This document shows positions 7,007-31,869 of a stretch of DNA of 46,480 bases, in pieces. The DNA comes from Pseudomonadota bacterium (lineage in GTDB: Bacteria; Desulfobacterota; Syntrophorhabdia; Syntrophorhabdales; Syntrophorhabdaceae), in NCBI GenBank assembly GCA_026388315.1, contig JAPLKA010000047.1, positions 1 to 46,480 on the forward strand, given 5' to 3'. Positions within the stretch are counted from its first letter, which is position 1. Each line of letters starts with the position of its first letter. A program made the translations under genes and the position numbers. The notes under the pieces were generated by a model. The model was not told the DNA's origin. It searched no databases and saw only the letters and a program-made list of their open reading frames with translations.

Positions 7007-7014
7007 TAGTCGTC

Positions 7015-7512: not shown

Positions 7513-7529
7513 ACACCTTACACGTTATA

Positions 7530-9583: not shown

Positions 9584-9931
9584 ATGCAAGAATTAAAAAT
9601 AGAACATTTCGGGATAAGCGTTACTGATATTAAAGAATCAACCAACTGGTATCAGGATGTCTTCGGATTTGAAGAAGTCAAGGAGTTTGAAAAACCCGAC
9701 CTGCAGATTAAGGGGGCGGTCATGAAGAGAGGAGATCTCTCTCTGGAAATTCTGCAGCCCTATGCTGTTAAAAAATGTCCTTCTGAAGATGGCCCTCTGG
9801 TCACCCGGTTGCAAAGAATTGGAGCTAATCATTTGACTTGCACAGATGAAGGATTAAAACCTGAAGCTTTCATTCGTGCCATTTACTCTATGGCGGGCAT
9901 ACAGTATGGCACGCTTCTGCCAGTTCCTTGA
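9584..9931 (+). CDS. VOC/glyoxalase-fold protein, apparently C-terminally shortened
   Basis: A 115-residue protein starting KIEHFGISVTDIKESTNWYQDVFGF, a complete first beta-alpha-beta-beta-beta module of the vicinal oxygen chelate fold (glyoxalase, methylmalonyl-CoA epimerase and relatives). Its key residues are the metal-ligand His8 and the WYQDVFGF helix end. The second module begins (ANHLTCTDEG) but stops after one helix instead of adding three strands. The last 44 bp overlap the 3' end of convergent trpA (9888-9931). The gene may therefore be truncated by the rearrangement that joined this cassette to the trp operon. It lies 19 bp after the dehydrogenase, with only a weak ribosome site. 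Function is unknown and activity doubtful. Confidence 0.6.
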   Translation: MQELKIEHFGISVTDIKESTNWYQDVFGFEEVKEFEKPDLQIKGAVMKRGDLSLEILQPYAVKKCPSEDGPLVTRLQRIGANHLTCTDEGLKPEAFIRAIYSMAGIQYGTLLPVP

Positions 9932-10703
9932 AAAAGGTTAAAAAAGCTTCCGGTTCTTCATGAGACTGACAAGCATCTTCCCACCTCTTTACGAGCGCAC
10001 TGCCCACCACAAAACCGTCTACATGGTTTGCGTATTCACGTATTATATCGGGTGCTGATATACCGAAACCGAGCACAAGGGGCAATTTGATCCTGCTTCT
10101 GATCTCATCTATCTTGTCTTTTATGCCTTCCGGCAGGGTATTCCTCTCCCCTGTAACACCGGTAACGGAAACAAAGTAAATAAAGCCTCTTCCGATACGT
10201 TTTATCACTTGAATACGCCTTCTGTCCGTTACAGGGGTTGCAAGAAAAATCGAAACGATCCCTTGTTCCCAGAGCAGGTCAACAAAGGTCTTCGCCTCCT
10301 CAGGGGGAAGATCAACAGTAAGTACAGCGTCAACCCCTGCTGCCCTTGCGTCTTTTGCGAACGCTTCAATCCCGTAAGCCCAGAAAGGGTTATAATACCC
10401 CATGAGTACTATCGACGCTGAATAACGTTCCTTAAAATCCCTTACCGTCTGAAGGACCTTTTTCAGGGTAGTCCCGCTTTTAAGCGCCCTTTCCGTAGCC
10501 CTCTGGATTACGGGTCCATCGGCCATGGGGTCGGAAAACGGGACGCCAAGCTCAATGATATCTGCGCCGTTGTCTGCAAATATCGCCAGGGCTTCCAAGG
10601 TCTTTGTAATATCCGGGTCACCTGCGGTAATGTATGGTATGAACGCCTTTTTGCCGGTTATTTTGAGTCCTTCGAATACCTTGGTTATCTTATTGTTATT
10701 CAT
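9888..10703 (-). CDS. trpA: Tryptophan synthase alpha subunit
   Basis: A 271-residue TIM barrel that cleaves indole-3-glycerol phosphate to indole, which passes to TrpB. The signature [18 protein letters not shown] carries catalytic Glu51 and Asp62. [19 protein letters not shown] and the phosphate-binding GFGIS and VVGSALV follow in order. Its ATG overlaps the trpB stop by 4 bp. It is the last gene of the aromatic supraoperon, and I see no terminator after it: its 3' end overlaps the convergent VOC gene by 44 bp. The last few residues, after ELAEAC, differ from the usual end and may come from the junction. Confidence 0.97.
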
Positions 10704-11875
10704 AGTTCTCCTTTTTGGATTTTCGATACCTGGTCTACGTCTTTGTCGCCCCTGCCCGAAAGATTCACAATTACAACCTTTCCCTGAAATTCATCTGCAT
10801 GCTTTATTACATAGGCTATTGCGTGACTGCTCTCAAGTGCAGGGATAATCCCTTCCTCCCTCGAAAGCAGGCTGAATGCGTCAAGCACTTCGTCATCGGT
10901 GGCATAGGCATAGTGAGCCCTTTTGGTGTCTCTCAAAAAGCTGTGCTCAGGCCCCACGCTGGCATAATCAAGCCCCGCGGAAACAGAGTGAGTTAAAAGG
11001 ATTTGACCGTCGTCATCTTGCAATGCATAGCTTTTCGTGCCCTGAAATATGCCTATCTTCCCTGTTGCAAACCTTGCAGCATGCCTGCCTGTCTCTATGC
11101 CGAGACCACCTGCCTCGACACCTATAAGCCTCACATGCTCAAGCTCGATAAAGGGATAGAATATACCCATGGCGTTGCTGCCCCCACCCACACATGCAAC
11201 AATCGTATCAGGTAACCTCCCCTCTTTTTTCATAATCTGCCTGATGGTTTCTTTTCCTATCACCGAAACAAACTCCTTTACCATTGTAGGATAAGGATGG
11301 GGTCCGAAGGCAGTACCGAGGACATAATGCGTATCGCGTACATTTGTCACCCAGTCCCTTAATGCTTCGTTGATTGCATCCTTGAGGGTTCTGCTTCCGC
11401 TGGCCACTCCGACTACTTCTGCGCCCAGTATCTCCATACGTATTACGTTCAACGCCTGCCTTTTCATATCTACCGTACCCATATAAACCCTGCATTTAAG
11501 ACCCAAAAGTGCAGATGCAGTCGCTGTTGCAACACCATGCTGGCCGGCCCCTGTCTCGGCAATAACCCTGTCCTTACCCATCTTTTTTGCAAGGAGCACC
11601 TGACCGATAGCATTATTTATCTTATGTGCGCCTGTGTGACAAAGATCTTCCCGTTTCAGATAGAGTCTCATCCCTGTTTTCCTTGAAATGTTTGCGGCAA
11701 AGTAAAGGGGCGTTGGCCTGCCGACATATCCGGTAAGGTAATGCATCAACTCTTTGCGGAATGCTCTTGATTTTACATGTTTGAAAAATCCATTTTTCAA
11801 CTCATTCAGCGCCGGCATGAGTGTCTCCGGTACATAAGCGCCGCCATATTCACCAAAATAACCGTTTGTTTTCAT
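10700..11875 (-). CDS. trpB: Tryptophan synthase beta subunit
   Basis: A 391-residue PLP enzyme that condenses indole and serine to tryptophan, typical length for TrpB1. It begins with [15 protein letters not shown]; the PLP lysine is Lys85 in [13 protein letters not shown], followed by [14 protein letters not shown] and the phosphate-binding GGGSNAMG. The start at 11875 has a strong AAGGAAGG ribosome site. An in-frame ATG at 11920 would add 15 residues not seen in the family. A stretch of period-9 repeat DNA separates it from trpF by 91 bp, one of the few gaps in the supraoperon. It couples to trpA by an ATGA overlap. Confidence 0.97.
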
Positions 11876-11933
11876 ATCATCCTTCCTTTTAACCGGGCTC
11901 GCACCGCCCTCTCCCTTCATAGATGTTCAAACG

Positions 11934-12023
11934 GCTTGAACCCTTTATCTGAACGGTTTTATCGGTTTAAGCAGCTTGAACGGTTTGAACCCTTTCTCCT
12001 AATCGGCTTGAACGGTTTAACCT
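11934..12023. repeat. Period-9 degenerate repeat between trpB and trpF, running into trpF
   Basis: Words such as GCTTGAACC, GTTTAAGCA, GCTTGAACG, GTTTGAACC and GCTTGAACG recur in a 9-nt register with two spacers. The same word family appears at 13425-13460. The part from 11967 upward is translated as the TrpF C-terminal tail. Confidence 0.7.
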
Positions 12024-12623
12024 GTGCGCGCCTATCCTTTTAAATATCTCAGCCATCTTATCAGGGTCTTTCTTTCCCGGTTCAGATTCGACACCGGAGG
12101 CTATGTCGATCGCATAAGGATTCAGCTTCAGCGCCATATCAATGTTTTCGCTGTTTATCCCGCCCGCAAGCATAAAAGGTCTGCCAAAATCCGCCAGAAG
12201 ATCCCAGTTAAATTTTACGCCGCCCCCGCCGTGCATATTTTCGTGATAGCTGTCGAGGAGCGGAAACGACTCCGACTTCCGCGCCTCTTCCACATCCTTC
12301 TTATCCCGTACTCTGAAGGCCATAATAGTGATACCGGGCGCAAAGTTACCGCATAGGCCCCTGTCGCCGGCGTATACCTGCACCCTGTCCAACCCGCAGT
12401 AATTCCTGACCTCCATGACTTTTTCCCATCTTTCATCGACAAAAACACCGCATCTAATAAGGAATGGCGGTAATTTACAGATTATTTTCCTCGCTTCCTC
12501 GTGCGGTATGAACCTTTTACTGCCTTTATAAAACACGAAACCTATTGCATCGGCGCCCATTTCTGCCGCGAGCGAAGCATCTGCATAATTTGTTATGCCG
12601 CAGATTTTAACAAGCGTATTCAT
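11967..12623 (-). CDS. trpF: Phosphoribosylanthranilate isomerase
   Basis: A 218-residue TIM barrel converting phosphoribosylanthranilate to CdRP. The N-terminal VKICGITNYADA holds the catalytic Cys. GADAIGFVFYKGSKR and MLAGGINSENID, followed by DIASGVE, are the other conserved blocks. The expected general acid Asp is in LLDSYHEN. The ATG at 12623 is chosen because it overlaps the trpC stop as ATGA; an upstream ATG at 12635 follows AAAGGAG too closely. The last 20 or so residues (RLNRSSRLGERVQTVQAA) are encoded by period-9 repeat DNA and are not part of the barrel, so they look like a repeat-derived tail. Confidence 0.95.
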   Translation of the reverse strand: MNTLVKICGITNYADASLAAEMGADAIGFVFYKGSKRFIPHEEARKIICKLPPFLIRCGVFVDERWEKVMEVRNYCGLDRVQVYAGDRGLCGNFAPGITIMAFRVRDKKDVEEARKSESFPLLDSYHENMHGGGGVKFNWDLLADFGRPFMLAGGINSENIDMALKLNPYAIDIASGVESEPGKKDPDKMAEIFKRIGAHRLNRSSRLGERVQTVQAA

Positions 12624-13405
12624 AACTTCCCGCATAACTCCTTTAGTTTTTTACAGGGATCACCTGAAACAATCAGCGAAGTTCCGATAAGGAATCCGCT
12701 AACTCCCCGCTCCATGAATGTTTCAATATGTTCACGTCTTTCAATGCCGCTTTCCACTATCACAGGCAAATTCGCAGGAATACCGTTGATCACCTCGTGT
12801 GAAACGGCAAGGTCAACCTTCAGCGTTTCAAGGTTTCTATTGTTTATCCCGAGGATAAACCCTTCAAGATCGGCAATCTTTTCATACGTTTTCAGGCTAT
12901 GGACCTCCAACAGTACATCAATGTCTAACTGTCGGGCAATCTCAAGATATTCCGCTATCTGATGCGCACTCAGCGCCTCGCCTATTAAAAGCACTGCATC
13001 GGCACCGGCGGCCTTGGCCTGGTATATATCATACTCGTCAACAACAAAATCCTTCCTCAAAATCGGCAGGTCTGTGATCATTTTTGCCTCTGGAATATAG
13101 GCAATCGAGCCGTTAAAATACGTTTCTTCAGTAATGACCGATATTGCCGAAGCCCCGCCTTTTTCGTAATCCATAAGAAGTCCCGGCAAATCCAGGTCGC
13201 AGGCGAGCACGCCTTTAGATGGTGATGCCTTCTTCACTTCAGCGATGACCTTCACCTCTTTAGGAAAACGTTGGGAAAATGTTTTGAAAAAAGACCTCTT
13301 TTCTATTCCATAAGTCATCTTCTTGAGCTCTTCAAGGGGCATTTTACCCTTCAGTGCTTTAACCAACTCCCTTTTTTCATTTAAAACCTTTTCAAGAAAT
13401 GTCAT
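12620..13405 (-). CDS. trpC: Indole-3-glycerol-phosphate synthase
   Basis: A 261-residue monofunctional IGPS that ring-closes CdRP to indole-3-glycerol phosphate. The signature VIAEVKKASPSKGVL (53-67) contains Glu56, Lys58 and the phosphate-binding Ser. LPILRKDFVVDEYDIYQAKAAGADAVLLI follows (key Lys in LRKDF), then ILGINNRNL and VIVESGI. It is separated from trpD by 59 bp holding a period-9 repeat and couples to trpF by a 4-bp overlap. Length and motif order are normal. Confidence 0.97.
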   Translation of the reverse strand: MTFLEKVLNEKRELVKALKGKMPLEELKKMTYGIEKRSFFKTFSQRFPKEVKVIAEVKKASPSKGVLACDLDLPGLLMDYEKGGASAISVITEETYFNGSIAYIPEAKMITDLPILRKDFVVDEYDIYQAKAAGADAVLLIGEALSAHQIAEYLEIARQLDIDVLLEVHSLKTYEKIADLEGFILGINNRNLETLKVDLAVSHEVINGIPANLPVIVESGIERREHIETFMERGVSGFLIGTSLIVSGDPCKKLKELCGKL

Positions 13406-13424
13406 ATCAATATCCTGTCGTGTC

Positions 13425-13460
13425 CTTTGAACCGCTTAAACCATTTGAACGGTTCAAGCT
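13425..13460. repeat. Period-9 degenerate repeat between trpD and trpC
   Basis: Four consecutive 9-nt words, CTTTGAACC, GCTTAAACC, ATTTGAACG and GTTCAAGCT, fill most of the 59-bp gap. The consensus matches the trpB-trpF repeat about 1.4 kb away. The last two words form an imperfect inverted pair. Confidence 0.65.
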
Positions 13461-13464
13461 ATAA

Positions 13465-14514
13465 TCATCCCCTGCCTGCTCCTGCCAGTTCTTCGAGCTT
13501 TTTCAATGCCTTCCCTGAGTCTATGACCTCTTCTGCATAGGCTATGCCTTCTTTTATATCCCGCCGGATACCTGCAATATAAAATGCAGCACCGGCATTG
13601 ATAAGGACTGCCGCCCTTTTCGCCCCGTTTTCTTTGCCTGAAAGAATACCTTTAAGGATTTGCGCATTCTCATGCGCATCCCCTCCCCTTAAATCCTCAA
13701 TGTTGTATGCCTTGAGTCCAAAGTCCCTAGGATTAATTATGTATTGGCGTATCCCGCCGTCTTTTATCTCCGCCACTTGTGTGTCTGTGGTAACGGATAT
13801 CTCGTCCATCCCGTCTTTTCCATGGACAATCATAGCCCTTTCCGTGCCGAGTTTTATAAGCACACCGGCAAACACTTCACACAATGTTTCCTTGTATACG
13901 CCGAGCAGCAGGTGTCTGGCCGATGCGGGGTTTGTAAGAGGGCCGAGCATGTTGAAGATCGTCCTGATGCCTATCTCTTTTCTGGGACCTACCGCGTGTT
14001 TCGTAGATCCGTGGAATACAGGCGCAAACAAAAAGGCTATGCCGATCTCGCTTATATGTTTTGCTACGGCTTCCGGGGGAGCTTCTATATCAATTCCCAG
14101 CGCCTCCAGCACATCGGCGCTGCCGCAGCGGCTTGAAACAGACCTGTTCCCGTGCTTTGCAACCGTAGCTCCTCCCGCCGCAACCACAAAAGCGGCAGCA
14201 GTGGAGATATTGAAGGTCATCGTACCATCTCCGCCTGTGCCGACTATATCCACTATCACCCTGTTTTGCCCGTTTATATGGTCACTTACCGTTTCTTTGT
14301 TTAATGTGATCTTTGCCGCCTTGCTTCTCATTACCTTCACCGCACCCACAACCTCGTCAACGGTTTCGCCTTTCATGCGCAACGCGGTAATAAATGCAGC
14401 GATCTGGGCAGGGGTTGTCTTCCCTTCCATAATATCCTCAATGACCTGCGCCATTTCGTGCTCTTCGAGATGAACCAGGTTTACAGCCTTATCAATAGCT
14501 TCATTGATCGTCAT
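13465..14514 (-). CDS. trpD: Anthranilate phosphoribosyltransferase
   Basis: A 349-residue enzyme that joins anthranilate to PRPP. The PRPP-binding GTGGDG and the [21 protein letters not shown] block (key Asn and the SSRCGSAD segment) are intact, with [10 protein letters not shown] and VHGKDGMDE further on. The N-terminal helical domain contains [10 protein letters not shown] as usual. It is not fused to TrpG, unlike in enterobacteria, but couples to it by a 4-bp overlap (14511-14514). The C terminus GAGRG is followed by the repeat-bearing gap before trpC. Confidence 0.97.
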
Positions 14515-15098
14515 TTTTGACCCCCGTTTGTTTTTGAAATTGATAAAAAATTATTCAATATATGTTTTCCTTCTATTGTAAGGATGGATTCCGGATGAAA
14601 CTGCACCCCTTCAAGCATATACGTTTTGTGCCTTATGCCCATGACTTCGCCGCCTTCTGTCCATGCAGAGACCTCAAATACCTCCCGCAAGCCATTCATT
14701 TCGACTGCAAGCGAATGATAGCGTGTGGCCTTAAAGGGGTTATCCACGTCGCTCATAATAGTTTTTCCGTCATGAAAGATCCTTGATATCTTTCCGTGCA
14801 TCAGTTCTTTTGCGTGTACGATCCGGCCCCCGAATGCATAGCCGATAGCCTGATGTCCGAGGCATACGCCGAGTATAGGAATTTTTCCCGCAAAATGCCT
14901 TACCACATCAACGGATATACCTGCTTCCCTCGGTGTGCACGGTCCGGGGGATATGACTATCCTATCCGGTAACAGCCTTTCAATCTCTTCCAAATCGATC
15001 ATGTCGTTCCTGTAAACCGCCACATCTTCTCCGAGCTCGCCGAGATACTGGACGAGGTTGTAGGTAAACGAATCATAATTATCAATCATAAGTAGCAT
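14511..15098 (-). CDS. trpG: Anthranilate synthase glutamine amidotransferase subunit
   Basis: A 195-residue class I glutamine amidotransferase that supplies ammonia to TrpE. It begins [19 protein letters not shown]. The nucleophile is the Cys in [10 protein letters not shown], and the His-Glu pair lies in [11 protein letters not shown]. The oxyanion segment [11 protein letters not shown] is present. It could also serve aminodeoxychorismate synthase (PabA) in folate synthesis, as in other bacteria, because no pabA is visible; that is inference. The start lies one base after the trpE stop. Confidence 0.96.
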
Positions 15099-15099
15099 A

Positions 15100-16584
15100 T
15101 CAGTCTATAATCTCCTTTAATTCCATTATGGATTTTACCAGGGCCTGTGACTTGTGGATCGTTTCCATGTACTCGTTCTCCGGTACCGAATCGGCCACAA
15201 TGCCCGCTCCTGCCTGGATATATACCTTGTTTTGTTTTTTAAGCAGTGTTCTTATTGTGATACAGAAATCCATGTTTCCGTTGTAGGCAAAGTAGCCTAC
15301 ACAGCCTGCATAAAATTCCCGTTTATCTTTTTCCAGTTCTTCTATGATCTCCATTGCCCTGATTTTCGGAGCACCCGCTACCGTGCCTGCAGGAAAGGTT
15401 GCCCGAAACACGTCGAATGCGTCCATGCCGTCTTTGACCCTCCCTTTGACGGAAGAAACGATATGCATTACATGGGAATACTTTTCTATGCCCATGAATT
15501 CAGGCACAGACACACTCCCTGTGACGGCGATCCTGCCCACATCGTTTCTTCCGAGATCGACAAGCATGGTATGCTCAGCCACCTCTTTCTCATCGGAGAG
15601 GAGTTCCTTTGCCAGAAGCTCATCTTCATCACGATCTTTGCCCCTTCTTCTTGTCCCTGCTATGGGCCTTACCTCCACCTCCCCGTTCTCGAGCTTTACC
15701 AGCGTCTCAGGCGAAGAGCCTATGAGGCTGTAATCGAGAAAATCAAGGAGAAACATATAGGGTGATGGGTTTACTACCCTTAACGCCCTGTAAAGGCTTA
15801 GGTTGTCGGTAGAAATCTCCATTGTAAACCTTTGAGATAAAACTACTTGGATTACATCACCGGCAATTATATATTCCTTTGCCCGCGATACCATCTCTTC
15901 AAATTCTTCCTTGGTTGTATTGCTGTCCATCATCCTTACGGATAATTTGCCTTCTTTGTTGAAGGCAAGGGATGAACGTACTATACCCTGGAGTTCATCA
16001 AGCTCTGCAACACCGCGTGCATAGCTCTCCTGCATGTTCTCGTGTTTGTCTGCATTCTGGAATACAAAAAGCGTCATTCTTCGTGTATAATTGTCGAAGA
16101 TGACGAGTTTTTTTGGAAATATGAAATACATATCAAAGACATCAAGGACACGTTTATTCGTATCCGGGATTTTCTCAAAGAATTTGACTACATCATACCC
16201 AACATAACCCACAGTACCTCCGCAGCATGCAATGCTGTCGGAAAAACCGAATCCCTTGAATTTGTTCATGATTTCCTTAAGCTCTAAAAAAGGGTTATTG
16301 CTTTCAAATGTATCTTCAATGAGGCCGCTTAAAAACACCTTTTTGCCGAGGCTCTTGAACACAAGGAATGGTTCGAAACCTATAAAAGAGAACCTGCCGA
16401 GCTTTTCTTTGGCCTCTACGCTTTCGAGCAGGAAAGACGGGGACAACGGATATGCATGCTTCAATTTCATATAACATGACAGCGGGGTATCGAGGTCTGC
16501 AAGTATCTCCCTGAAAAAGGGGAGCACATCATCCGTTTCAGCCTGTTTTAAAAATTCATTGTAAGTCATGGATTTTTCATTCAT
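15100..16584 (-). CDS. trpE: Anthranilate synthase component I
   Basis: A 494-residue chorismate-utilising enzyme making anthranilate with TrpG. The N-terminal LLES motif (52-55) and GRFSFIG mark the tryptophan-binding feedback site, so allosteric inhibition by Trp is expected. The catalytic C-terminal half contains [28 protein letters not shown] and [19 protein letters not shown], all in order. LLES and these blocks favour TrpE over PabB. The start overlaps the tyrA stop by 8 bp. It is the first trp gene of the supraoperon. Confidence 0.96.
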
Positions 16585-17377
16585 AAACGCCCTCTCTTGA
16601 TAACATATTTTCTCTTAATCGCAGGAAAAACGTCTCCATCTCTTCGTGGTCCCTTTCCCTGATAATGTGTTTCAGATATTCCAGCTTTGCCGTGACCCTG
16701 TCCAACTCGGCTAAGGAATAGGGATTAAACAGTATCTCTGTAAGTAGATGATCATCCTCGGATAAAAGTCCTTGTGCGATCCGCATATGCTTGGAGAAGG
16801 TGGTTCCGGGGACAGCGCCTTTGTCGATGCATGAGGCAAAGGCAATTGAAGAAATAAAGGGAAGTGTAAGGGAATAGGCCATCATCCTGTCGTGCTCGTC
16901 AAATGAATATTCAAAGATATTTACATTTAGTCTTTCGAATAACGTACTGAAAAACCAGGCACCTTTTTTATCAGACCCGCTTATGATGATTGCGCTTTCC
17001 TCTTTAAGTGCTTTCATATCGGTAAAGGTAGGGCCGAACATGGGGTGTACAGATACGAATCTGAACAGGCTCTGTTCGTAGTAACCGGCTATTTCTCCCT
17101 TTATCGATGCAAGATCGCCGATAATGCAGTTTTTGGAAATATGCAGCACAGCCTTTTCAAAAGCTGAAACGGTATTTTGGAGGCTCACGGCATTGATCAG
17201 GAGTTCGGGGTCAAACAAGGCAATCTCCTGTATACGGGGGAGCGCTGTTATGCTTTTTCCTCCAAGGCCGTTTAACTTCGTTTCGTCCGTATCATAAATT
17301 GCTATATCATGATCCCCGGATGATTCCCTTGCAAGCCATGAACCCATTTTACCGGCACCCAGAATGACGATTCTCAT
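16577..17377 (-). CDS. tyrA: Prephenate dehydrogenase
   Basis: A 266-residue NAD(P)-dependent enzyme that turns prephenate (or arogenate) into the tyrosine precursor. The nucleotide site is VILGAGKMGSW at the N terminus; GDLASIKGE and SVHPMFGPTF, with the catalytic His, follow. The C-terminal helical dimerisation region contains YSLTLPF. There is no ACT domain and no chorismate mutase domain, so it is a bare catalytic core with no visible tyrosine feedback site. It overlaps pheA by 4 bp (ATGA) and trpE by 8 bp. An aminotransferase is still needed and is not in the window. Confidence 0.93.
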   Translation of the reverse strand: MRIVILGAGKMGSWLARESSGDHDIAIYDTDETKLNGLGGKSITALPRIQEIALFDPELLINAVSLQNTVSAFEKAVLHISKNCIIGDLASIKGEIAGYYEQSLFRFVSVHPMFGPTFTDMKALKEESAIIISGSDKKGAWFFSTLFERLNVNIFEYSFDEHDRMMAYSLTLPFISSIAFASCIDKGAVPGTTFSKHMRIAQGLLSEDDHLLTEILFNPYSLAELDRVTAKLEYLKHIIRERDHEEMETFFLRLRENMLSREGVYE

Positions 17378-18450
17378 TGTATTGCTCCTTTATAAGATTT
17401 GTAACATCCGAGAAATTTAAAACTCGTTGTCTCTTTTTGCACTTCTTCAAGGGCATCCACTACCCTGCCCTCTTTGTCCGATCCTTCAAAATCAGTGAAA
17501 AACACATAGTTTCCCGGATCGTTTTTTATAGGTCTCGACTCTATCCTTGTAAGGTTTATCCTTTTGTCGGAAAATGCCTTCAGGACGGAAAACAGACCGC
17601 CTGTCTCATGTTTTACAGAAAATATTATTGAACATTTATCTCCAGGTTCGCCCCTTGCCTCCCTGGATAATACGATAAACCTCGTGGAATTAGATTCATG
17701 GTCTTCTATGTTTTCTTTAATGATCTCTAAATGATACAACTCGGCACAAAGCTTGTTCGCAATAACGCCTGCGGCTTCCAGCCTGTTTTCAGAGAGCATT
17801 TTTGCAGCGCCTGCGGTATCATAAAACGGTCTTGGTTCGAGTTTGTGCCTTAAGATAAATTCACGACATTGCGCGAGCGCTTGCGGATGAGAGTAAACAA
17901 CCTTCAAATCACGGTACTGCGTTTCAGGCAGTGCGAGAAGGCAGTGATGGACAGGTATGCTGACCTCTCCAATGATCCTTAAATTCGTTTGAACCAATAG
18001 ATCGTTGACCTGTGTCACAGCCCCTTCAAGGGAGTTTTCGACCGGGACAATGCCCAGATCAATCTGGCCTGATGAGACCTCGTTAAAGACCTCGATAAAT
18101 TCCTTGCATGAAACCGGGATCAAGGATGCGTCATACGAAAGAGAGGCGACCTCGCTGTATGCGCCGTGTTCTCCCTGAAAACCGATGAGGTTCAGACTTT
18201 GTTCCTGGACGTGTTTGCTTTCGTCGATGATCAGGCCGTATAATCTCTCCAGGAATTCCGGTTTTAACAGGCTGCGTGATGTTTTCTTTATATTATTGAA
18301 TATCTGTTGTTCCCGGTTTTGATCAAACACGCATTGCTTAAATTTCCTCGACCTTACTGCAAGCTCCATCCTCTGGTTCAGAAGCTCGATGATCCCGCAG
18401 TCGATCATGTCTATGCTTTTTCTAATAATCATAAGATCGCTATTGCTCAT
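17374..18450 (-). CDS. pheA: Bifunctional chorismate mutase / prephenate dehydratase (P-protein)
   Basis: A 358-residue two-enzyme fusion leading to phenylpyruvate. Residues 1-85 form an AroQ-type helical chorismate mutase (RKSIDMIDCGIIELLNQRMELA). The dehydratase begins at IGFQGEHGAYSEVA, with VPVENSLEGAV and the catalytic ESNSTRFIVL near residue 250. The C-terminal ACT domain (about 270-350) has GGLFSVLKAF and ESRP, the phenylalanine-binding signatures, so feedback inhibition by Phe is expected. It lies 12 bp after aroC with an AAAAGGA site and overlaps tyrA by 4 bp. The single mutase domain feeds both this gene and tyrA. Confidence 0.96.
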   Translation of the reverse strand: MSNSDLMIIRKSIDMIDCGIIELLNQRMELAVRSRKFKQCVFDQNREQQIFNNIKKTSRSLLKPEFLERLYGLIIDESKHVQEQSLNLIGFQGEHGAYSEVASLSYDASLIPVSCKEFIEVFNEVSSGQIDLGIVPVENSLEGAVTQVNDLLVQTNLRIIGEVSIPVHHCLLALPETQYRDLKVVYSHPQALAQCREFILRHKLEPRPFYDTAGAAKMLSENRLEAAGVIANKLCAELYHLEIIKENIEDHESNSTRFIVLSREARGEPGDKCSIIFSVKHETGGLFSVLKAFSDKRINLTRIESRPIKNDPGNYVFFTDFEGSDKEGRVVDALEEVQKETTSFKFLGCYKSYKGAIQ

Positions 18451-18462: not shown

Positions 18463-19578
18463 TTACCGTGGCCCGGTATCCGCACTATTGCCGGGGCTTG
18501 CGCCTGTCCCGCTTGCGGGGTCGCCCCCTCCAACGGCAAAGCCGTTCGGAGCCTCCCTTTCTCGCTCACCGTGTGAACTGTTTAAATCCTGCAGCGGGAC
18601 TTGCCCGTGGGAATCTATAAGCATGAGGTCTGCAAGCGCTATGGCGGTAACAGCCTCTATAACAACGGGCACCCGCAACGCGATGCACACGTCATGCCTT
18701 CCTTTCACGTAAAGCTCCACCTGTTCGCCGGTTTTCAGGTTAACGGTATGCTGCATGCGGGATATACTTGATGTGGGCTTGACAGCCGCCTTAAAAACGA
18801 TATCGTTCCCGTTTGTTATGCCTCCGTTGATGCCGCCGGCGTTGTTGGTCCTTGTCTCGCCTTTTATGTTAATGATCTCATCGTTACACTCGCTTCCCCG
18901 CATCCGTGCGCATGAGAAACCTGCGCCAAATTCTATGCCCTTTATGGCAGGTATGGAAAAGACCAGATGGCTTATGAGGGATTCCACAGAATCGAAGAAT
19001 GGCTCTCCCAACCCCGCATGCAAACCGCTCGCCCTGCATGACACGATACCGCCGATAGAATCCCTGTTTTGCATAGCGGATTGAACGGCAGCCGTGATAT
19101 CTTCGGACCTGCCGGCTTCTATAAGCGTAGCCTCTACCTTTACCGGTTTTATCAGCAGCTTTGCTATGACCCCTGCAGCAACCAGCCCTGCAGTCAATCT
19201 TCCCGAGAAATGTCCACCGCCTCTGTAATCGTTGAAACCGTTGTATTTTTTCCAGGCAGTAAAATCCGCATGTCCGGGTCTGGGTGTATCTTTAATGCTA
19301 TTGTAAGCACTCGAATCAACATTCTTATTCTCAAAAAGGATACAAATCGGGGCGCCCGTGGTTTTCCTGTTGAATACACCACTTTTTATTAGAGGGATAT
19401 CCGGCTCTTTTCTCGGGGTTGTGCCCTCGATACCCCCCATACGCCTTTTCAGGTCATCATCAAACCCCTGAACCGGAACAGAAAGTCCGGCAGGACAGCC
19501 ATCGATGAGAATACCGACACACTCTCCGTGGGACTCGCCCAGGATTGATACTTTAAACACACGTCCGAAACTATTCAT
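18463..19578 (-). CDS. aroC: Chorismate synthase with a repeat-derived C-terminal tail
   Basis: A 371-residue FMN-dependent enzyme that eliminates phosphate from EPSP to give chorismate. GESHGECVGILIDGCPAGL, the RPGHADFTAWKKY block and RGGGHFSGRLTAG are all conserved, with SRMQHTVNL and the final active-site region KGRHDVCIALR later. The normal chain should end near SHGQVPLQDLNS. The last 37 residues (SHGEREREAPNGFAVGGGDP... to ...ADTGPR) are Gly/Ala/Pro-rich and encoded by GC-rich, hairpin-forming DNA (18466-18576) unlike the rest. It overlaps aroA by 8 bp. Confidence 0.96.
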   Translation of the reverse strand: MNSFGRVFKVSILGESHGECVGILIDGCPAGLSVPVQGFDDDLKRRMGGIEGTTPRKEPDIPLIKSGVFNRKTTGAPICILFENKNVDSSAYNSIKDTPRPGHADFTAWKKYNGFNDYRGGGHFSGRLTAGLVAAGVIAKLLIKPVKVEATLIEAGRSEDITAAVQSAMQNRDSIGGIVSCRASGLHAGLGEPFFDSVESLISHLVFSIPAIKGIEFGAGFSCARMRGSECNDEIINIKGETRTNNAGGINGGITNGNDIVFKAAVKPTSSISRMQHTVNLKTGEQVELYVKGRHDVCIALRVPVVIEAVTAIALADLMLIDSHGQVPLQDLNSSHGEREREAPNGFAVGGGDPASGTGASPGNSADTGPR

Positions 19579-20833
19579 GTTTCACCTTCACTGAATTCAG
19601 ATCTTCAAAAAACGAGGGAAAGGACTTGGAAACACATGCCGGTCTCTCTACAATAACATCCCCTTGCCCTGCAAGCGCAGCTATTGCGCATGCCATTGCT
19701 ATTCTATGGTCATTATGAGAATCCACTGTACCGCCCCTCCTGTTCCCACCGGTAATCTCCATCCGGTCTTCAAAAATCCTTATCTTGATCCCGATCTTGG
19801 AAAATTCCTCAACCAGGGCAAGGCCGCGGTTGCTCTCCTTATGTTTTAAGCGTTCCACCCCGTAGATGACGCTTTTGCCCGCACATCCTGCTCCGAGGGC
19901 AACAAGGGGAGGAAACAGATCAGGGCAATCACCGGCATCAAACTCAAATGCATTCAGCCTGTCTTTTGCGACAAAAATATAGTCATTTTTCACCTCTACC
20001 TGAGCCCCTGCCTTAATAAGCGCCTCTATCACCGCTTTATCCGCCTGATATGAGTCCGGACTTAGACCCTTTACCTTTATGGAACCTGCCAATGCCCCGG
20101 CAACAAGAAAAAAGGCAGCGCCAGACCAATCCCCTTCTATTGCGCACATACAGGGTTTATAGTGCTGATCACCTTTTATATGAAATTCCGTAAGGTCATT
20201 GTTGTGGGAAACTGCTACACCGAACCTCCTCATAGTATCAATCGTCAACTCGATATAGGGCTTACTTTTCAGTGCCGTAACCGTGATATCGGAATCACCG
20301 CTGCACAGAGGAAGTGCCACCAGCAAACCCGTTAAAAACTGTGAGCTTTCAAAACCGTTTATATTAATCCTGCCTGAACCGATCCTGCCTTTTACCTGTA
20401 CGGGTGCAAAATCTCTGTCTGTCAAGCACGTTGCGCCTAAACCAGTCAATGCTTCAACCATCTTTAAGGGTCTTTTAAGCAACGAGCCTGAGGCATTCAA
20501 TGTGATTTCCTCTTCAAGCAATCCTGAAACAGGCGCGAACATCCGAATACAAAGCCCGGATTCGCCGCAATCGAGCGTGTTGCCTCTTATGCATTTTTCT
20601 TTCAGGCTGGCGTTTCCCTCGATTGTTATACTGTCTCCTTCCTTTAGTATTTCAGCCCCGAGTGTATCCGCTATGCCAAGGGCAGTCAGGCCGTCGCTGC
20701 AAAAGGATGGGTTGATTATTTTTGATGTACCTGAAGCGAGCAAGGCTGCGGCAACAACCCTGATCATCTCACTTTTTGAAGCAGGCGCATTGATTTCGCC
20801 GTCAATTTGTGAGGACTTTACCCGTTTCGTCAT
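19571..20833 (-). CDS. aroA: 3-phosphoshikimate 1-carboxyvinyltransferase (EPSP synthase)
   Basis: A 420-residue two-domain enzyme joining shikimate-3-phosphate and PEP. The N-terminal ASKSEMIRVVAAALLASG block, LDCGESGLCIRMF in place of the class I GNAGTAMR loop, the GDWSGAAFFLVAGAL segment and SHNDHRIAMACAI are in order. Gly in GESG corresponds by position to the glyphosate-contacting Gly of class I enzymes, but the loop as a whole is of the divergent GESGL type. Glyphosate response cannot be predicted. The start has an AAGGA site and overlaps aroE/K by 32 bp, the longest overlap in the operon. Confidence 0.95.
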   Translation of the reverse strand: MTKRVKSSQIDGEINAPASKSEMIRVVAAALLASGTSKIINPSFCSDGLTALGIADTLGAEILKEGDSITIEGNASLKEKCIRGNTLDCGESGLCIRMFAPVSGLLEEEITLNASGSLLKRPLKMVEALTGLGATCLTDRDFAPVQVKGRIGSGRININGFESSQFLTGLLVALPLCSGDSDITVTALKSKPYIELTIDTMRRFGVAVSHNNDLTEFHIKGDQHYKPCMCAIEGDWSGAAFFLVAGALAGSIKVKGLSPDSYQADKAVIEALIKAGAQVEVKNDYIFVAKDRLNAFEFDAGDCPDLFPPLVALGAGCAGKSVIYGVERLKHKESNRGLALVEEFSKIGIKIRIFEDRMEITGGNRRGGTVDSHNDHRIAMACAIAALAGQGDVIVERPACVSKSFPSFFEDLNSVKVKHE

Positions 20834-22115
20834 ATATTTTCCTTATAATCTCGTTCGGTTCTACACCGTCTGTCTTTACGATCATGTCGGAGGTGCTTGC
20901 ATATAAAGGCAACCTCTCGTTGAGCATCCTCCTGATACCGGATTCTGTATGTGCTTCAGGCAGCAGCGGACGTCCGTTGTCGTTGCCCACTTTTTTTAAA
21001 ACAGTGTCGATATTTGCCCATAACCATACGACAATGCAGCTTTTCCTGAGTATGTCCCTGTTTGCCCTGTTCAGTATTGCCCCGCCGCCGCATGAAATTA
21101 CCGTATTTGAGAGGTCCGGGATACAAGCAATCTCCTTTTTCTCAATCTGTCTGAAGGCGCCTTCTCTCTTAACTTCAAATATCTCGCGTATTGATAACCC
21201 GGTCTTCTGTTTTATCTCTTCATCGATATCTATGTATGACATCGCACTCTGTTTTGAAACACCGTGACCCACCGTAGATTTGCCGGCACCCATAAAGCCT
21301 ATGAAAGCAATGTTCTTTTTACAGGACATGCTTTCCCTGTAAACAGCCTTCCGCATGACCTCCATCGGAGGTTCTATCCCGGTAAAGTGCCTGAAGGCCG
21401 ATATCCCTTGAAAAAGAAGCCATTCTCTGCCGTCTACGATTGTGCAACCCCTTTGTTTACCGTCCTTTACCAGTGCTGTGGGCACTCCATAGTTTGCATC
21501 GAGGATGACAATACCTTTTTTAAGGGCATCGGGCTTTACAACCCTTTCTTTTGAAGAAAGGCATGAAACGAGGATATCCGTATGTTTTAGCGTTTCATCG
21601 ATATGTTCCATTCTTGCGACTTTACATCCCAGCTCTTCAGAAATAGCCCTTGCCTTTTCAAACGTGCGGTTCGCGATCACCACATCCGCCCCTTCCGAAA
21701 TAAGGGCACACACAGCCGCCTTGGCCGCCCCGCCTGCGCCCAGCACAAAGGCCCTTTTCCCTTCTGCTTTCACACCGTTGAAATGAAGGGCATCTTTTAC
21801 GCCTTTAATATCCGTATTGAACCCTTTAAGCCTGCCCTCTTTTACAATTATTGTGTTGACAGCGCCTATTCTCTGCGCCGCCTCCTCCATGTCGTCCAGA
21901 AAGGGCACAATCTCTTCCTTGAAAGGCGAAGTTACATTAAAGCCTGAAATGCCTATATCCAATGCACCCTCTATGATTTCTTCAGGCCGGGAGGCTGCAA
22001 AGCGCGTGTATACGGCGTCCATTGACAATAATTCAAAAGCGGCATTGAAGATATCGGGGCTCCTGCTCTGAAGAACCGGATTTCCGGTAACGGCAAATAT
22101 CTTTGTCTTAGACAT
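20802..22115 (-). CDS. aroE-aroK: Fused shikimate dehydrogenase - shikimate kinase
   Basis: A single 437-residue ORF carries two consecutive shikimate-pathway enzymes. Residues 1-260 are AroE: shikimate-binding NPVLQSRSP (12-20), catalytic Lys66 in VTSPFKEEI, Asp102 in FNTDIKG, NADP-binding GAGGAA (126-131) and NRT. Residues 265-437 are a shikimate kinase: Walker A GFMGAGKSTVG (273-283), DIDEEIKQKTGLSIREIF, CGGGAIL and the lid GRPLLPE. The linker is only about 10 residues. The two steps, dehydroshikimate to shikimate to shikimate-3-phosphate, are adjacent, so channelling is possible. It overlaps aroD by 8 bp. No frameshift is seen between the halves. Confidence 0.93.
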   Translation of the reverse strand: MSKTKIFAVTGNPVLQSRSPDIFNAAFELLSMDAVYTRFAASRPEEIIEGALDIGISGFNVTSPFKEEIVPFLDDMEEAAQRIGAVNTIIVKEGRLKGFNTDIKGVKDALHFNGVKAEGKRAFVLGAGGAAKAAVCALISEGADVVIANRTFEKARAISEELGCKVARMEHIDETLKHTDILVSCLSSKERVVKPDALKKGIVILDANYGVPTALVKDGKQRGCTIVDGREWLLFQGISAFRHFTGIEPPMEVMRKAVYRESMSCKKNIAFIGFMGAGKSTVGHGVSKQSAMSYIDIDEEIKQKTGLSIREIFEVKREGAFRQIEKKEIACIPDLSNTVISCGGGAILNRANRDILRKSCIVVWLWANIDTVLKKVGNDNGRPLLPEAHTESGIRRMLNERLPLYASTSDMIVKTDGVEPNEIIRKIYDETGKVLTN

Positions 22116-22755
22116 GTTTCAATAACCTCATAATCTCTTCCAAACGCGCCTTTTCAATCTGGCCTTCGGCAGTCTGCTTACCCTCTTCAAAGGATACATA
22201 TGTAAAGGGGCTTCCCAGAAAAGGAGCAACAACCCGCGTTATCTTGCCCTTTTCACCCATTCCTACAACTACAAGTCTGTCTTTAAAATCCTCCTGACCG
22301 AGCAGTCCCAGAAGCCTTGCGCTATCCGTGACGGAATGTACCTTGCAGGCGATTTTGGCAATGTCGGCACCCTCGCTGAAGCACAATGCAGCAGTTTGTC
22401 TCAGTATTTTATCTTCAGGGGTCTTCTCGAAGTCATGAAAGGAAATTATCACCTTACACCCCTTTGATCCTGCCCTTTTCATGATCTCCCTTTTATAGGC
22501 AATGACCGATTCAACCTCGATATCCACATACTGTGCCCCTGCTTCTATTGCAGCAATCAAATATTCCTTCCTCTTCGTATCATCGAGGGCGCCCGCTCTG
22601 CATGTGGCAATAAGCGTCACAGGTTGCGAAAATATTTTTGCAATATCTTCTGAATTCAAGACCATCCGGTCCATCCTTATCTCGGCTAAATCTATTTTAT
22701 TCAATGATATATTATAGATAATATTACATTGTTCATCCATACTAACACATATCAT
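22108..22755 (-). CDS. aroD: Type I 3-dehydroquinate dehydratase
   Basis: A 215-residue TIM-barrel dehydratase that forms a Schiff base with 3-dehydroquinate. Conserved residues appear in LAEIRMD, QYVDIEVE, the catalytic His of ISFHDFEKT (around 106) and the Schiff-base Lys of ADIAKIACK (around 131). The C terminus has GSPFTYVSFEEGKQTAEGQ, matching the substrate loop. The length is slightly short against 225-250 for the family because the N terminus begins directly at the first strand. It overlaps aroB by 14 bp and aroE/K by 8 bp. Confidence 0.95.
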   Translation of the reverse strand: MICVSMDEQCNIIYNISLNKIDLAEIRMDRMVLNSEDIAKIFSQPVTLIATCRAGALDDTKRKEYLIAAIEAGAQYVDIEVESVIAYKREIMKRAGSKGCKVIISFHDFEKTPEDKILRQTAALCFSEGADIAKIACKVHSVTDSARLLGLLGQEDFKDRLVVVGMGEKGKITRVVAPFLGSPFTYVSFEEGKQTAEGQIEKARLEEIMRLLKHV

Positions 22756-23770
22756 AAGCTATTTCCTTGATTTCGTTAATGTTTACCTTCTCTATTCTTG
22801 CCTTTCCGATTCCATCGAGCAGGACAGTATGTATATATTCATCTTCCCGCTTTTTATCTTTCCTGATTGCATCCATGATCGCTTCCACATTGCCCTTAAA
22901 CGATACAGGGAGATCGAACATTGCGAGCATCTGCCCTATCCTCTCCACATCCTTTTTCTGCAATAACCCTTTAACCTCAGAAAGCCTCGCCTCCATAAGC
23001 ATTCCTATGCTTACCGCTTCACCGTGCTTGATGACGGCGGTCTTCTCAAACGCATGTCCGAAGGTATGGCCGAAATTCAATTTTATCCTCTCTCCTTTTT
23101 CTGTTTCGTCTTGAGAAACAATGCCGGTTTTCACCTTCAGAGAATCGTATACAATCCTTTCAATTGTGCCTTTATCAAACGATAGGGCTGCTTCCCGGGC
23201 GCTCTCAATAGTGGAAAAAAGCGCCTCGTCTCCTATCAATGCATGTTTTATCACCTCGGCAAACCCATTCCTTAACTCTGCTGCTGAAAGGGTCTTCAGA
23301 ACGTCAAAATCGCACAGCACAAATTGGGGCTGATTAATCGTGCCGATAAGATTTTTATAACCTTTGAAATTGACGCCATTCTTACCGCCGACACTTGCAT
23401 CCACCTGAGCAAGAAGTGTAGTGGGCGCAAAGGCAAAGGGCAAACCACGAAGATATGTAGAGGCTGCAAAGCCTGCAATGTCGCATACAACCCCGCCACC
23501 TATACCCAATATAAACGATGAACGGTCAAATTCGAACTCAAGAAGCTTTTTGTATATACCATGGACTGTATCAAGGGTTTTATGCTCTTCCCCGGCCTTA
23601 ATTACAATTGTCCTGTATATGGAAAACAATTCCCCGTAAAGCCTGTGGACATTGCTGTCCGTAATTACAACCGTTTTCTCGATACTGCAAAAGTCAATCA
23701 GGTTATTTAACGACAGACCCAGCATGATTATACTTTTGCCCGTATTTCCGGCTAACGTGATCTGTCTCAT
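22742..23770 (-). CDS. aroB: 3-dehydroquinate synthase
   Basis: A 342-residue NAD- and Zn-dependent enzyme that cyclises DAHP. The nucleotide-binding [15 protein letters not shown], the substrate motif [30 protein letters not shown] and zinc ligands in [12 protein letters not shown] and HGEAVSIGM are all present and in order. Length is standard. It overlaps aroF by 4 bp (ATGA), so the first two committed steps are translationally coupled. The final residues overlap aroD. Confidence 0.97.
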
Positions 23771-24579
23771 TCTGAATCCGCCATGAATTTATGGAGTGTA
23801 CGAGCCCTTTTTATCATCTTCGAGAACTGTTCAGGGTTTAATGTCTGATCCTTATCACAAATCGCCTCAGATGGATTTATGTGGACTTCAACGATAATGC
23901 CGTCTGCGCCGGCAGCCACTGATGCAAGGCTCAAGGAAGCTATGAGGCTCGCCCTTCCCGTAGCATGGGAAGGATCAATGATTACCGGCAGGTGCGTGAG
24001 TTCTTTTAAGGAAGGGACAGCGCTTATATCAAGTGTATTTCTTGTATATGTCTCAAAAGTACGGATGCCCCTCTCGCAGAGTATCACGTCAGGGTTTCCT
24101 CCATCGAGGATGTATTCCGCACAATTTAACCATTCTTCTATAGTTGAGTTCATGCCTCTTTTTAATAAGACAGGTTTTTGTGTTTTACCCACTTCCTTAA
24201 GCAGTGAAAAGTTCTGCATATTCCTTGCGCCTATCTGCAGCACATCGGCATATTCGCATACCCATGGAACATCCCTTGTATCAATTACCTCTGTGACAAT
24301 AGGTAATCCTGTTTCTTCCTTTGCCTTTTTCAATATCTTGAGCCCTTTTAAACCAAGTCCCTGAAAGGCATAGGGAGAGGTTCTCGGTTTAAAGGCGCCG
24401 CCCCTCATCATATCGGCCCCTGCTTCTTTTACCGCATGCGCAGTTTCAATGGTCTGTTTTTCGTTTTCTACAGAGCAGGGGCCGGCAATCACACAAAAAC
24501 CTTCCCCTATCGTCACATCACCAACAGAGACAACGGTTCTTTCTCTTTCTTTCAAGGCAGTCAACAATATATTTTTCAT
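23767..24579 (-). CDS. aroF: DAHP synthase, short class I-beta type
   Basis: A 270-residue 3-deoxy-D-arabino-heptulosonate-7-phosphate synthase, the entry step joining PEP and erythrose 4-phosphate. [44 protein letters not shown] and the metal-site DPSHATG and GIIVEVH blocks define the KDOPS-like I-beta core. The protein begins only about 28 residues before GPCSVE, so the N-terminal ferredoxin-like regulatory domain of the Thermotoga type and any fused chorismate mutase are absent. Feedback inhibition is therefore not evident, and control may fall to the attenuator upstream. The start has a strong AAAGGAG site 5 nt away. It is the first structural gene of the supraoperon. Confidence 0.96.
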
Positions 24580-24601
24580 TTTTGCTCCTTTTTCACAGTA
24601 C

Positions 24602-24644
24602 TAAAAACAAAAAAGGCCATGGGTTTTTACACCCATGGCCTTTT
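24602..24644 (-). terminator. Attenuator terminator of the aromatic supraoperon
   Basis: On the minus strand a perfect 14-bp stem (24631-24644 pairing with 24611-24624, core AAAAGGCCATGGGT) with a 6-nt GTAAAA loop is followed by TTTTTGTTTTTAG-like sequence (24602-24612). It lies between the leader ORF stop and the aroF ribosome site. Its 5' arm can instead pair, through GGC...GGGTG (24630-24640), with CACCCGCC at 24673-24680 in the end of the leader ORF, giving an antiterminator. Confidence 0.9.
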
Positions 24645-24662
24645 GGTATCCCATTTATGTTA

Positions 24663-24740
24663 TTAGGGGCACGGCGGGTGCATAACAATATAGTAATACC
24701 AATACCAGAAATTGTTTGTCGGATTTTTACGAGTATTCAT
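24663..24740 (-). CDS. Aromatic amino acid attenuation leader peptide (25 aa)
   Basis: A 25-codon ORF beginning MNTRKNPTNN and continuing FWYWYYYIV before a Pro-rich end. Codons 11-17 (24690-24710) are seven consecutive aromatic codons: Phe, Trp, Tyr, Trp, Tyr, Tyr, Tyr. A ribosome stalled there for lack of Phe-, Trp- or Tyr-tRNA would leave the CAC-CCG-CC segment (codons 21-23) free to form the antiterminator. A ribosome reaching the stop would cover it and let the terminator form. That geometry is the classical trp/phe attenuator logic. No Shine-Dalgarno is present, and the predicted transcription start is at the ATG, so the peptide may be read from a leaderless mRNA. I know of no gene name for it. 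Confidence 0.88.
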   Translation of the reverse strand: MNTRKNPTNNFWYWYYYIVMHPPCP

Positions 24741-24747
24741 TGTACTT

Positions 24748-24777
24748 AATATAATACAATATGAAGATTGTTGTCAA
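24748..24777 (-). promoter_or_regulatory. Promoter of the aromatic supraoperon, with overlapping palindrome
   Basis: On the minus strand, a perfect TTGACA (24772-24777), 18 nt and TATATT (24748-24753). The expected start is 24740-24742, at the leader ATG. A 15-bp palindrome ATTGTTG-T-CAACAAT (24767-24781) covers the -35 box and ATTGTA/TACAAT half-sites flank the -10, so a repressor may act here as well. The sites do not resemble TrpR or TyrR boxes. Confidence 0.7.
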
Positions 24778-24853: not shown

Positions 24854-26425
24854 CTACTTAATGAAGTGAGCGCCCCGGCTCATACGGTTTTTGAATGCGG
24901 ATTGAGCCACTATGAATGCCGTCCTGACTCCGTTTCTAAGATTGATCACCATAGGAACAAGGTGTGCCCTTCTGTAAAAATCGTCTATCCTGTTCTTGAG
25001 ATAGCCAAGATCTGATTTTGCCCTCTCCAGTCTCCTGACAGTACGTATGATACCCACGTAATTCCACATGGTGGATTTTATACTTACCCAGTCCTGCTGG
25101 ATAAGCGCCGGGTCAACCTCTTCTTCCCGTTCCGGAAAACGCCATGGCGGGATTTCAGATTCTTCATACGGTTTTTTATCATCAAAGTGTTCAACTATAT
25201 GTTGAGCAGATCTTATTCCCCACACCAGTCCTTCAAGGAGCGACGTGGAAGCAAGTCTGTTGGCGCCATGTATGCCCGTTGCCGTCACCTCCCCGGCAGC
25301 ATAGAGATTATTGAGAGATGTCCTTCCCCAGACATCCACCTGGACACCACCGCAACTGTAGTGAGCGGCAGGCACAACCGGAATAGGCACCTTCTGGATA
25401 TCAATATCAAGCGACAGACAGCGTTTATAAATAGTGGGAAAACGTTTCTTGATATTGATATCCGTATAAGAGGCAATATCGAGATAGACGTATGAATCTC
25501 CTCTTTTTATCATCTCTTCATATATTGCCCGTGACACCTCGTCTCTCGGCGCAAGATCGCCCAAAGAAGAATATTTGTCCATGAAAGGTACATCGTCTTT
25601 TGTTTTAAGCTTTGCGCCCTCACCCCTCAGCGCCTCTGAAATAAGAAATCCGTCGGCGTCCTTATGAAAAAGACTTGTTGGATGGAACTGAATGTACTCC
25701 ATATTGATCAGTCTGGCCCCTGCCCTGTCGGCCATTGCAAATCCGTCGCCTGTTGCACTGGAAGGATTTGTGGTGTGGAGATAGATTCTTCCGAGACCTC
25801 CGGCTGCAAGGATCGTATAGGTCGAGAATATCCTCTCCACATGCTCACTTTCGTTATTCAGCACATATGCGCCTATACACTGCGGCTCCATATACAACGC
25901 CAGCGGACTGGTCGAATGATGCGGTATGGTAAGCAGGTCTACTGCGGTATAATTTACAAAAACTCTTATTTTTTCTATCTCCATCACCTTTTTTACAAGG
26001 GCTTCTTCAATTGACTTTCCCGTGGAATCCATACAATGGAGAATCCTTCTTTTCGAATGACTTGCCTCCCTTGCATATTCATATCCTGCCTCCTCGGAAC
26101 GCGAAAAAGGGACACCTATTTTTTTTACCAGAAAAGCATCCACCAGGGATGGCCCTTCGTGGGCAACCACTTTAACCGCCTCAAGGTTTGAAATTCCATC
26201 CCCGGCCTGCATAATATCGTTTATAAGGTATTCCGGGGAGTCATCCCTTCCCATAGAGACAATCCCACCCTGAGCATGGTATGTATTCGATTCCTCAAGG
26301 GTTGACCCCTTTGTGACAATGATTACATCGAGCCCTGAATCTGCGGCGGTAATGGCCGCCGAAAGGCCGGCTATACCCGAACCGATAATGAGAACATCAC
26401 AATAATGTCTGTTATCTTTATTCAT
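24854..26425 (-). CDS. nadB: L-aspartate oxidase
   Basis: A 523-residue flavoenzyme that oxidises aspartate to iminoaspartate, the first step of de novo NAD synthesis. FAD binding is shown by LIIGSGIAGLSAAI at the N terminus. The NTYHAQGGIVS segment, HSKRRILH, the substrate-capping QFHPTSL, a GEGAKL segment and the C-terminal GGVQVD...GEVTATGIHGANRLASTSLLEG, here key glycines and GANRLASTSL, all match NadB and its relative SdhA. Quinolinate context settles it as NadB. It begins one base after the nadA stop. No terminator is evident between its stop and the aromatic promoter 75 bp on. Confidence 0.96.
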   Translation of the reverse strand: MNKDNRHYCDVLIIGSGIAGLSAAITAADSGLDVIIVTKGSTLEESNTYHAQGGIVSMGRDDSPEYLINDIMQAGDGISNLEAVKVVAHEGPSLVDAFLVKKIGVPFSRSEEAGYEYAREASHSKRRILHCMDSTGKSIEEALVKKVMEIEKIRVFVNYTAVDLLTIPHHSTSPLALYMEPQCIGAYVLNNESEHVERIFSTYTILAAGGLGRIYLHTTNPSSATGDGFAMADRAGARLINMEYIQFHPTSLFHKDADGFLISEALRGEGAKLKTKDDVPFMDKYSSLGDLAPRDEVSRAIYEEMIKRGDSYVYLDIASYTDINIKKRFPTIYKRCLSLDIDIQKVPIPVVPAAHYSCGGVQVDVWGRTSLNNLYAAGEVTATGIHGANRLASTSLLEGLVWGIRSAQHIVEHFDDKKPYEESEIPPWRFPEREEEVDPALIQQDWVSIKSTMWNYVGIIRTVRRLERAKSDLGYLKNRIDDFYRRAHLVPMVINLRNGVRTAFIVAQSAFKNRMSRGAHFIK

Positions 26426-31832: not shown

Positions 31833-31867
31833 ATTCTACATTCATAATTCTACATTCTACATTTTAA
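31833..31867. repeat. Period-7 repeat between the SRP RNA and dnaX
   Basis: Five words in 7-nt register: ATTCTAC, ATTCATA, ATTCTAC, ATTCTAC, ATTTTAA. It directly abuts the 3' end of the SRP RNA. Confidence 0.7.
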
Positions 31868-31869
31868 AG

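Follow-up and report, generated by a model that had tools for sequence, protein, structure and literature searches.

Where the genes for a whole pathway stand in one operon, a single stretch of leader RNA may have to answer to several end products at once, and the stretch of Syntrophorhabdales DNA analyzed here (46,480 nt, referred to as the window) raises the question of how this is accomplished for Phe, Tyr and Trp. On its minus strand, the window carries a compact operon of 15 genes (24579 to 9888; aroF-B-D-EK-A-C, pheA, tyrA, trpE-G-D-C-F-B-A), the products of which span the route from the first step of aromatic biosynthesis to all three amino acids, minus the aminotransferase step. Between nadB (24854-26425) and aroF (23767-24579) lies a minus-strand gap of 274 nt, in which an initial annotation had placed one attenuator that reads Phe, Trp and Tyr together. 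Re-reading of the open reading frame (ORF) translation, the pairing segments, the terminator and the promoter located every element exactly where that annotation had put it.

The leader locus and the operon downstream

The elements of the leader and the genes that follow it are listed below in the direction of transcription.

24748..24777, minus strand: predicted sigma-70-type promoter, TTGACA-N18-TATATT (11/12 match to consensus)
24738..24744, minus strand: putative transcription start, coinciding with the leader ATG or a few bases away from it (from -10 spacing)
24663..24740, minus strand: leader peptide ORF of 25 codons, MNTRKNPTNNFWYWYYYIVMHPPCP, then the stop codon (translation; run kept in 17/17 orthologs)
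24690..24710, minus strand: regulatory codons 11-17, Phe-Trp-Tyr-Trp-Tyr-Tyr-Tyr (FWYWYYY) (translation; stall folding)
24644..24701, minus strand: competing upstream hairpin, or anti-antiterminator (minimum-energy fold and stall-position folding)
24673..24682, minus strand: segment 2 (TGCACCCGCC), the antiterminator 5' half, within the tail of the leader ORF (pairs with 24640-24628; covaries)
24611..24644, minus strand: intrinsic terminator with a perfect 14-bp stem and a 6-nt loop, arms AAAAGGCCATGGGT/ACCCATGGCCTTTT (direct reading; covariation)
24602..24610, minus strand: T-rich tail of the terminator (direct reading)
24585..24590, minus strand: aroF Shine-Dalgarno site, AAGGAG (direct reading)
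23767..24579, minus strand: aroF, DAHP synthase, the first aromatic-pathway enzyme (TIGR01361, 408 bits)
18463..23770, minus strand: aroB, aroD, an aroE-aroK fusion, aroA and aroC, the remaining steps to chorismate (NCBIfam)
16577..18450, minus strand: pheA (chorismate mutase-prephenate dehydratase) and tyrA (prephenate dehydrogenase) (NCBIfam; tyrA on weaker matches)
9888..16584, minus strand: trpE, trpG, trpD, trpC, trpF, trpB and trpA (NCBIfam)

The leader contains a single Phe codon and no Leu codon. Following its aromatic run, CACCCGCC (24680-24673) can pair with GGCCATGGGTG (24640-24630) in the 5' arm of the terminator, that arm and the loop representing segment 3 and the 3' arm segment 4. 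In the fold of the window leader, the upstream hairpin sequesters part of segment 2 unless it is opened by a ribosome. As trpE overlaps tyrA (gap of -7), the window is without a separate or internal Trp leader between these two genes, and, in this genome, no attenuator other than the single leader ahead of aroF was seen for the trp genes. The same assembly harbors a second, six-gene aroF-B-D-EK-A-C operon (L219; contig C13 of G000, positions 2081-8072), which is 50-73% identical, lacks a leader and includes neither phe nor tyr nor trp genes up to the end of the contig; it could represent either a paralogous set or contamination (estimated at 3.7%). Elsewhere in the window, positions 31866-31963 of the minus strand specify a bacterial small SRP RNA (RF00169, 79.4 bits).

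Because short ORFs are frequent in any sequence, the aromatic run might be thought to belong to a chance ORF ahead of an ordinary terminator. A short ORF with seven consecutive aromatic codons, however, occurs once in the whole window and in none of 60 dinucleotide shuffles of it, and 16 such cases arose when the 274-nt intergenic region was shuffled 20,000 times. Furthermore, a survey detector that required a terminator preceded by a short ORF in which 5 or more of 8 codons are aromatic retrieved 75 leaders when applied to 161 aroF loci, as opposed to 0 in the shuffled loci and 1 on the opposite strand. Coincidence is, in our estimation, next to negligible as an explanation.

At the site corresponding to the window promoter, 16 of the 17 orthologs (the window included) display a TTGACA or TTGACT -35 box together with a comparable -10 box, the promoter of L018 being poorly called. 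The window leader ATG is situated 7 nt past the -10 box and lacks a Shine-Dalgarno site; similarly, 7-9 nt separate the end of the -10 box from the start codon in 16/17 orthologs, in which the best Shine-Dalgarno match amounts to 2-3 of 6 positions. Given this short spacing and the lack of a ribosome site, the leader in this order is probably translated from a leaderless mRNA. More distantly related leaders generally start 17-50 nt past the -10 box, in some cases behind a clear ribosome site. Leader peptides encoded on leaderless transcripts have been described previously, for instance trpL of Sinorhizobium meliloti (PMC7298713) and leaders of Streptomyces lividans (PMC8079986).

Alternative helices and predicted ribosome stalling

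The aromatic run, segment 2 and the terminator are present in all 17 of the aroF-headed operons found in the order. The initial annotation had held that its proposal would fall if related leaders kept the terminator and lost the codon run; alignment of the upstream aroF regions revealed conserved aromatic codons throughout, and no ortholog in which the terminator alone was retained. The leader is absent at unlinked or second copies of aroF (L002, L031 and L032). The core of the run generally ends a few nucleotides 5' of segment 2, and a ribosome terminating on the leader would have segment 2 within its footprint, the end of this segment being 8-16 nt from the stop codon in 12/17 orthologs and 3 nt before or overlapping the stop in the remaining 5.

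Both of the alternative helices are supported by compensatory change. In alignment A2, 94.5% of the cells of the antiterminator (segment 2 with segment 3) are paired, with both sides changed at 4 of 8 pairs, as opposed to 20-57% when the helix is slid by 1-3 columns; for the terminator, 96.6% of the cells are paired and 6 pairs exhibit changes on both sides, the slid controls falling far below both helices. At two sets of aligned columns (76/121/135 and 77/120/136), all three of segments 2, 3 and 4 co-vary, C-G-C being replaced by T-A-T in L021 and in L007. At the level of the phylum, relatives employ different yet matching segments, such as GGCGTCTGCCCG/TGGGCAGACGCC in L022 and CTCCCATCCA/TGGATGGGAG in L025. 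The mutual exclusivity of antiterminator and terminator is backed by this covariation. The hairpin between segments 1 and 2 (pause or anti-antiterminator hairpin) is present in the window and in L008, L010 and L014, and is weak or absent in most orthologs.

The consequences of ribosome position were assessed by placing a ribosome on each codon in turn, with its leading edge 13 nt beyond where the A-site codon begins, and folding the free downstream RNA of a transcript ended before the 3' arm of the terminator. With the ribosome on codons 1-9 of the window leader, the probability of antiterminator formation is 0.04-0.53; it rises to 0.79-0.86 over codons 10-16, falls to 0.47 at codon 17 and is 0 from codon 18 onward. 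Release of the antiterminator is accordingly predicted mainly when the ribosome waits on codons 10-16. The same model predicts antiterminator probabilities of 0.86-1.00 for stalls over most of the run in 17/17 orthologs, in all of which a ribosome at the stop codon covers segment 2 and leaves the terminator free. The upstream fold that prevents antitermination from early stalls in the window is clear in few orthologs and is not part of the conserved arrangement; in those that lack it, stalls on early, non-aromatic codons could also result in readthrough.

It is, therefore, proposed, with a probability of approximately 0.8, that the locus encodes a ribosome-mediated transcription attenuator which senses several amino acids. 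As a computed object the attenuator is close to certain, and it is from this object that we infer leader translation, termination in vivo and control of the operon. RNA polymerase would start at or beside the leader ATG and a ribosome would load onto the presumably leaderless RNA. When charged Phe-, Trp- and Tyr-tRNA are ample, this ribosome is expected to cross codons 11-17 and, close to the stop codon, to cover segment 2 (CACCCGCC), allowing segment 3 to pair with segment 4, upon which the terminator would form and the operon be switched off. Scarcity of any one of these charged tRNAs would instead cause the ribosome to wait on codons 11-17, 5' of segment 2, such that segment 2 would pair with segment 3, the terminator would not form and all 15 genes would be transcribed.

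A terminator coupled to an alternative structure would, taken alone, also fit a riboswitch, a T-box or a protein-bound leader to which the ORF is incidental. The conserved element of the locus is, however, the ORF itself, with codons that track operon content, and an Rfam search of the leader yielded no leader, T-box or riboswitch family at the gathering threshold (Trp, Phe and His leaders and T-box included), T-box, Trp and Phe leader matches being absent even in a permissive search at E values up to 10. Control of the terminator by an element of this kind is considered a very remote prospect.

Amino acids probably read by the leader

The make-up of the aromatic run varies considerably across the order, as illustrated by FWYWYYY, YFGWWYF, YFGFWFYY, YHWYHY, YWWYYY, GYWYFYW and FNFYYWYFY. 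Being short, rich in aromatic codons and placed ahead of a terminator, the ORF resembles a TnaC-like arrest peptide, for which the ligand in the exit tunnel would be a free aromatic amino acid or some other molecule. Arrest peptides conserve their sequence, whereas residue order and identity are shuffled between the orthologs (FWYWYYY, YFGWWYF, YHWYHY and GYWYFYW) with only the aromatic class being kept, and the conserved His-Pro tail is accounted for by the RNA pairing of segment 2. Ligand-induced arrest is, consequently, considered highly unlikely. The leader YHWYHYAF of L009, found also in L117, includes two His codons amid the aromatic run, His not being a product of the operon.

Attenuation through a translated leader being favored by the 17/17 conservation, the covariation of both helices, the stall geometry and the agreement of codons with operon content, it remains to be considered how many of the three amino acids are effectively sensed. 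Tyr is found in 17/17 runs, Trp in 16 (lost in L016, although the operon there extends to trpE) and Phe in 15 (absent from L010 and L011). It may be that the same attenuator effectively senses one or two amino acids only, be it Tyr by itself or Tyr together with Trp, with the remaining aromatic codons being tolerated as easily interchanged, a reading which is in line with the absence of Phe and of Trp from certain runs and with the Phe-Tyr-Phe leader of Corynebacterium glutamicum, which is reported to answer to one of its two amino acids (PMC11802643). A race model with assumed rates predicts a response to each of the three amino acids, strongest for Tyr, intermediate for Trp and weakest for Phe; even so, a single slow Phe codon raises predicted readthrough from about 0.09 to 0.45-0.8 under these rates. 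The same model returns no Leu response, as the leader is devoid of Leu codons, and overestimates the Lys response relative to stall folding, since it grants early codons full antitermination.

Further evidence against a restricted reading is provided by the wider survey, in which operon content was taken from enzyme hits and spacing. Operons of the type aroF-trpEGDCFBA possess Trp-dominated leaders (NFWWCWWW and RFWWCWWW), whereas the leaders of aroF-pheA operons (VFFYFYYF, VYYFSYFYF and FFFNYYYFYF) and of clostridial aro-pheA operons without trp genes (FYFYGYYFF and SYFYFYYYF) contain no Trp; in full operons, the leaders mostly mix Phe, Tyr and Trp, with Trp in nearly all. Accordingly, Trp accounts for a share of 0.60-0.83 of the aromatic codons in three operons with trp genes and no pheA or tyrA call, and for none of those in the aroF-pheA and clostridial aro operons. 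The Trp share is higher where trp genes are present in the cluster (means of 0.27 versus 0.11; Mann-Whitney P of 2e-4), the classes having been set post hoc and shared ancestry left uncorrected. A two-way test of Trp presence against trp genes in the cluster was weak (Fisher P of 0.14), since a single Trp is frequent in the leaders of isolated aroF genes and certain trp blocks possess a Trp leader of their own. Separate trp blocks are, indeed, often preceded by such a leader (SWWWRD, NVWWWGS and AAWRNWWWR), as is the case for five relatives within the order (L117, L119, L121, L122 and L127), in which an internal leader restricted to Trp (WWWGS or WWWDS) lies, together with a terminator, between tyrA and trpE and an aromatic leader is likewise located before aroF. 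Operons of the order with and without the internal leader show no obvious difference in the Trp codons of their first leader.

The agreement between codon make-up and operon content suggests selection on amino acid identity, and sensing restricted to one or two amino acids is, on balance, regarded as rather unlikely. Of the earlier interpretation, attenuation is strongly supported, while the idea that the leader senses all three amino acids is plausible, the single Phe codon, the ortholog losses and the Phe-only response reported for C. glutamicum speaking against it. The leader is likely to read all three, the case being weakest for Phe, and to each of these a response would be expected, with sensitivity declining from Tyr through Trp to Phe.

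Precedents and wider occurrence

Ribosome-mediated attenuation and multi-amino-acid leaders are already known kinds of control. The trp (trpL) and pheA (pheL) systems of Escherichia coli likewise rely on a translated leader of cognate codons and on mutually exclusive antiterminator and terminator structures, yet each reads one amino acid, whereas the window leader presents all three before one operon, is probably leaderless and has a segment 1 hairpin that is poorly conserved. The ilvGMEDA and thr leaders of E. coli do read several amino acids for pathways with multiple end products, those being branched-chain amino acids or Thr and Ile as opposed to aromatic ones. The initial annotation's remark that only single-amino-acid leaders are known must be softened in this respect; for a leader that combines Phe, Trp and Tyr, no description was found among the open-access papers covered by the search, an absence which constitutes weak evidence.

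The nearest precedent is aroR of C. glutamicum, a leader-peptide attenuator with codons for more than one aromatic amino acid that also precedes a DAHP synthase gene, the aroF operon. Its Phe-Tyr-Phe sequence is reported to respond to limitation of Phe and not of Tyr; it includes no Trp codon and is not stated to head a phe, tyr and trp operon (Neshat et al. 2014, as cited in PMC11802643 and PMC4046766). The uORFC-13-1 motif of Acholeplasma similarly combines an upstream ORF, encoding at least one Phe, with a terminator before aroF, although it is not multivalent (PMC8632094).

At even odds stands a broader reading, according to which multivalent aromatic attenuators would represent a widespread form of first-step control, placed on whichever enzyme starts the pathway, with the proportions of Phe, Tyr and Trp codons being readjusted whenever trp, phe or tyr genes enter or quit the operon. 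A fused operon would, thus, have one three-amino-acid leader and a split one a Phe/Tyr leader plus separate Trp leaders, and in the order of the window the leader would be translated from a leaderless mRNA with each amino acid sensed independently. In the window, one RNA of 140 nt would integrate the supply of three amino acids and gate a complete 15-gene operon without a regulatory protein. The leader series (Trp-dominated, Phe/Tyr-only, mixed and split) amounts to a natural experiment on how the choice of codons determines the amino acids to which an attenuator responds, and on the way in which control is re-established after the fusion or splitting of operons. As regards the distribution of the pathway itself, AroF and AroC are both absent from approximately 27 of 46 order-level genomes (G001-G061), many of which are nearly complete, and TrpB exceeds the curated cut-off in only 13 order-level genomes; the whole aromatic pathway seems to have been lost in many members of the order.

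Within the same phylum, leaders of this kind also precede operons which start with the unrelated genes of an alternative dehydroquinate route, being detected at 18/20 such loci. A putative attenuator had been listed in the Merino database before the aroA'-aroB'-pheA-aroF-tyrA-trp supraoperon of the delta-proteobacterium Desulfovibrio vulgaris (PMC1173090, Table 7). This supraoperon has first genes unrelated to those of the window, and the text of that report gives neither a leader peptide nor its amino acid make-up. In operons of the D. vulgaris type in this phylum, the present survey did identify Phe/Trp/Tyr leaders (L250-L258), among them GFYFWYWFSHARGRG ahead of the complete operon of L255, and a leader of this type is likely the identity of the attenuator once predicted for D. 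vulgaris.
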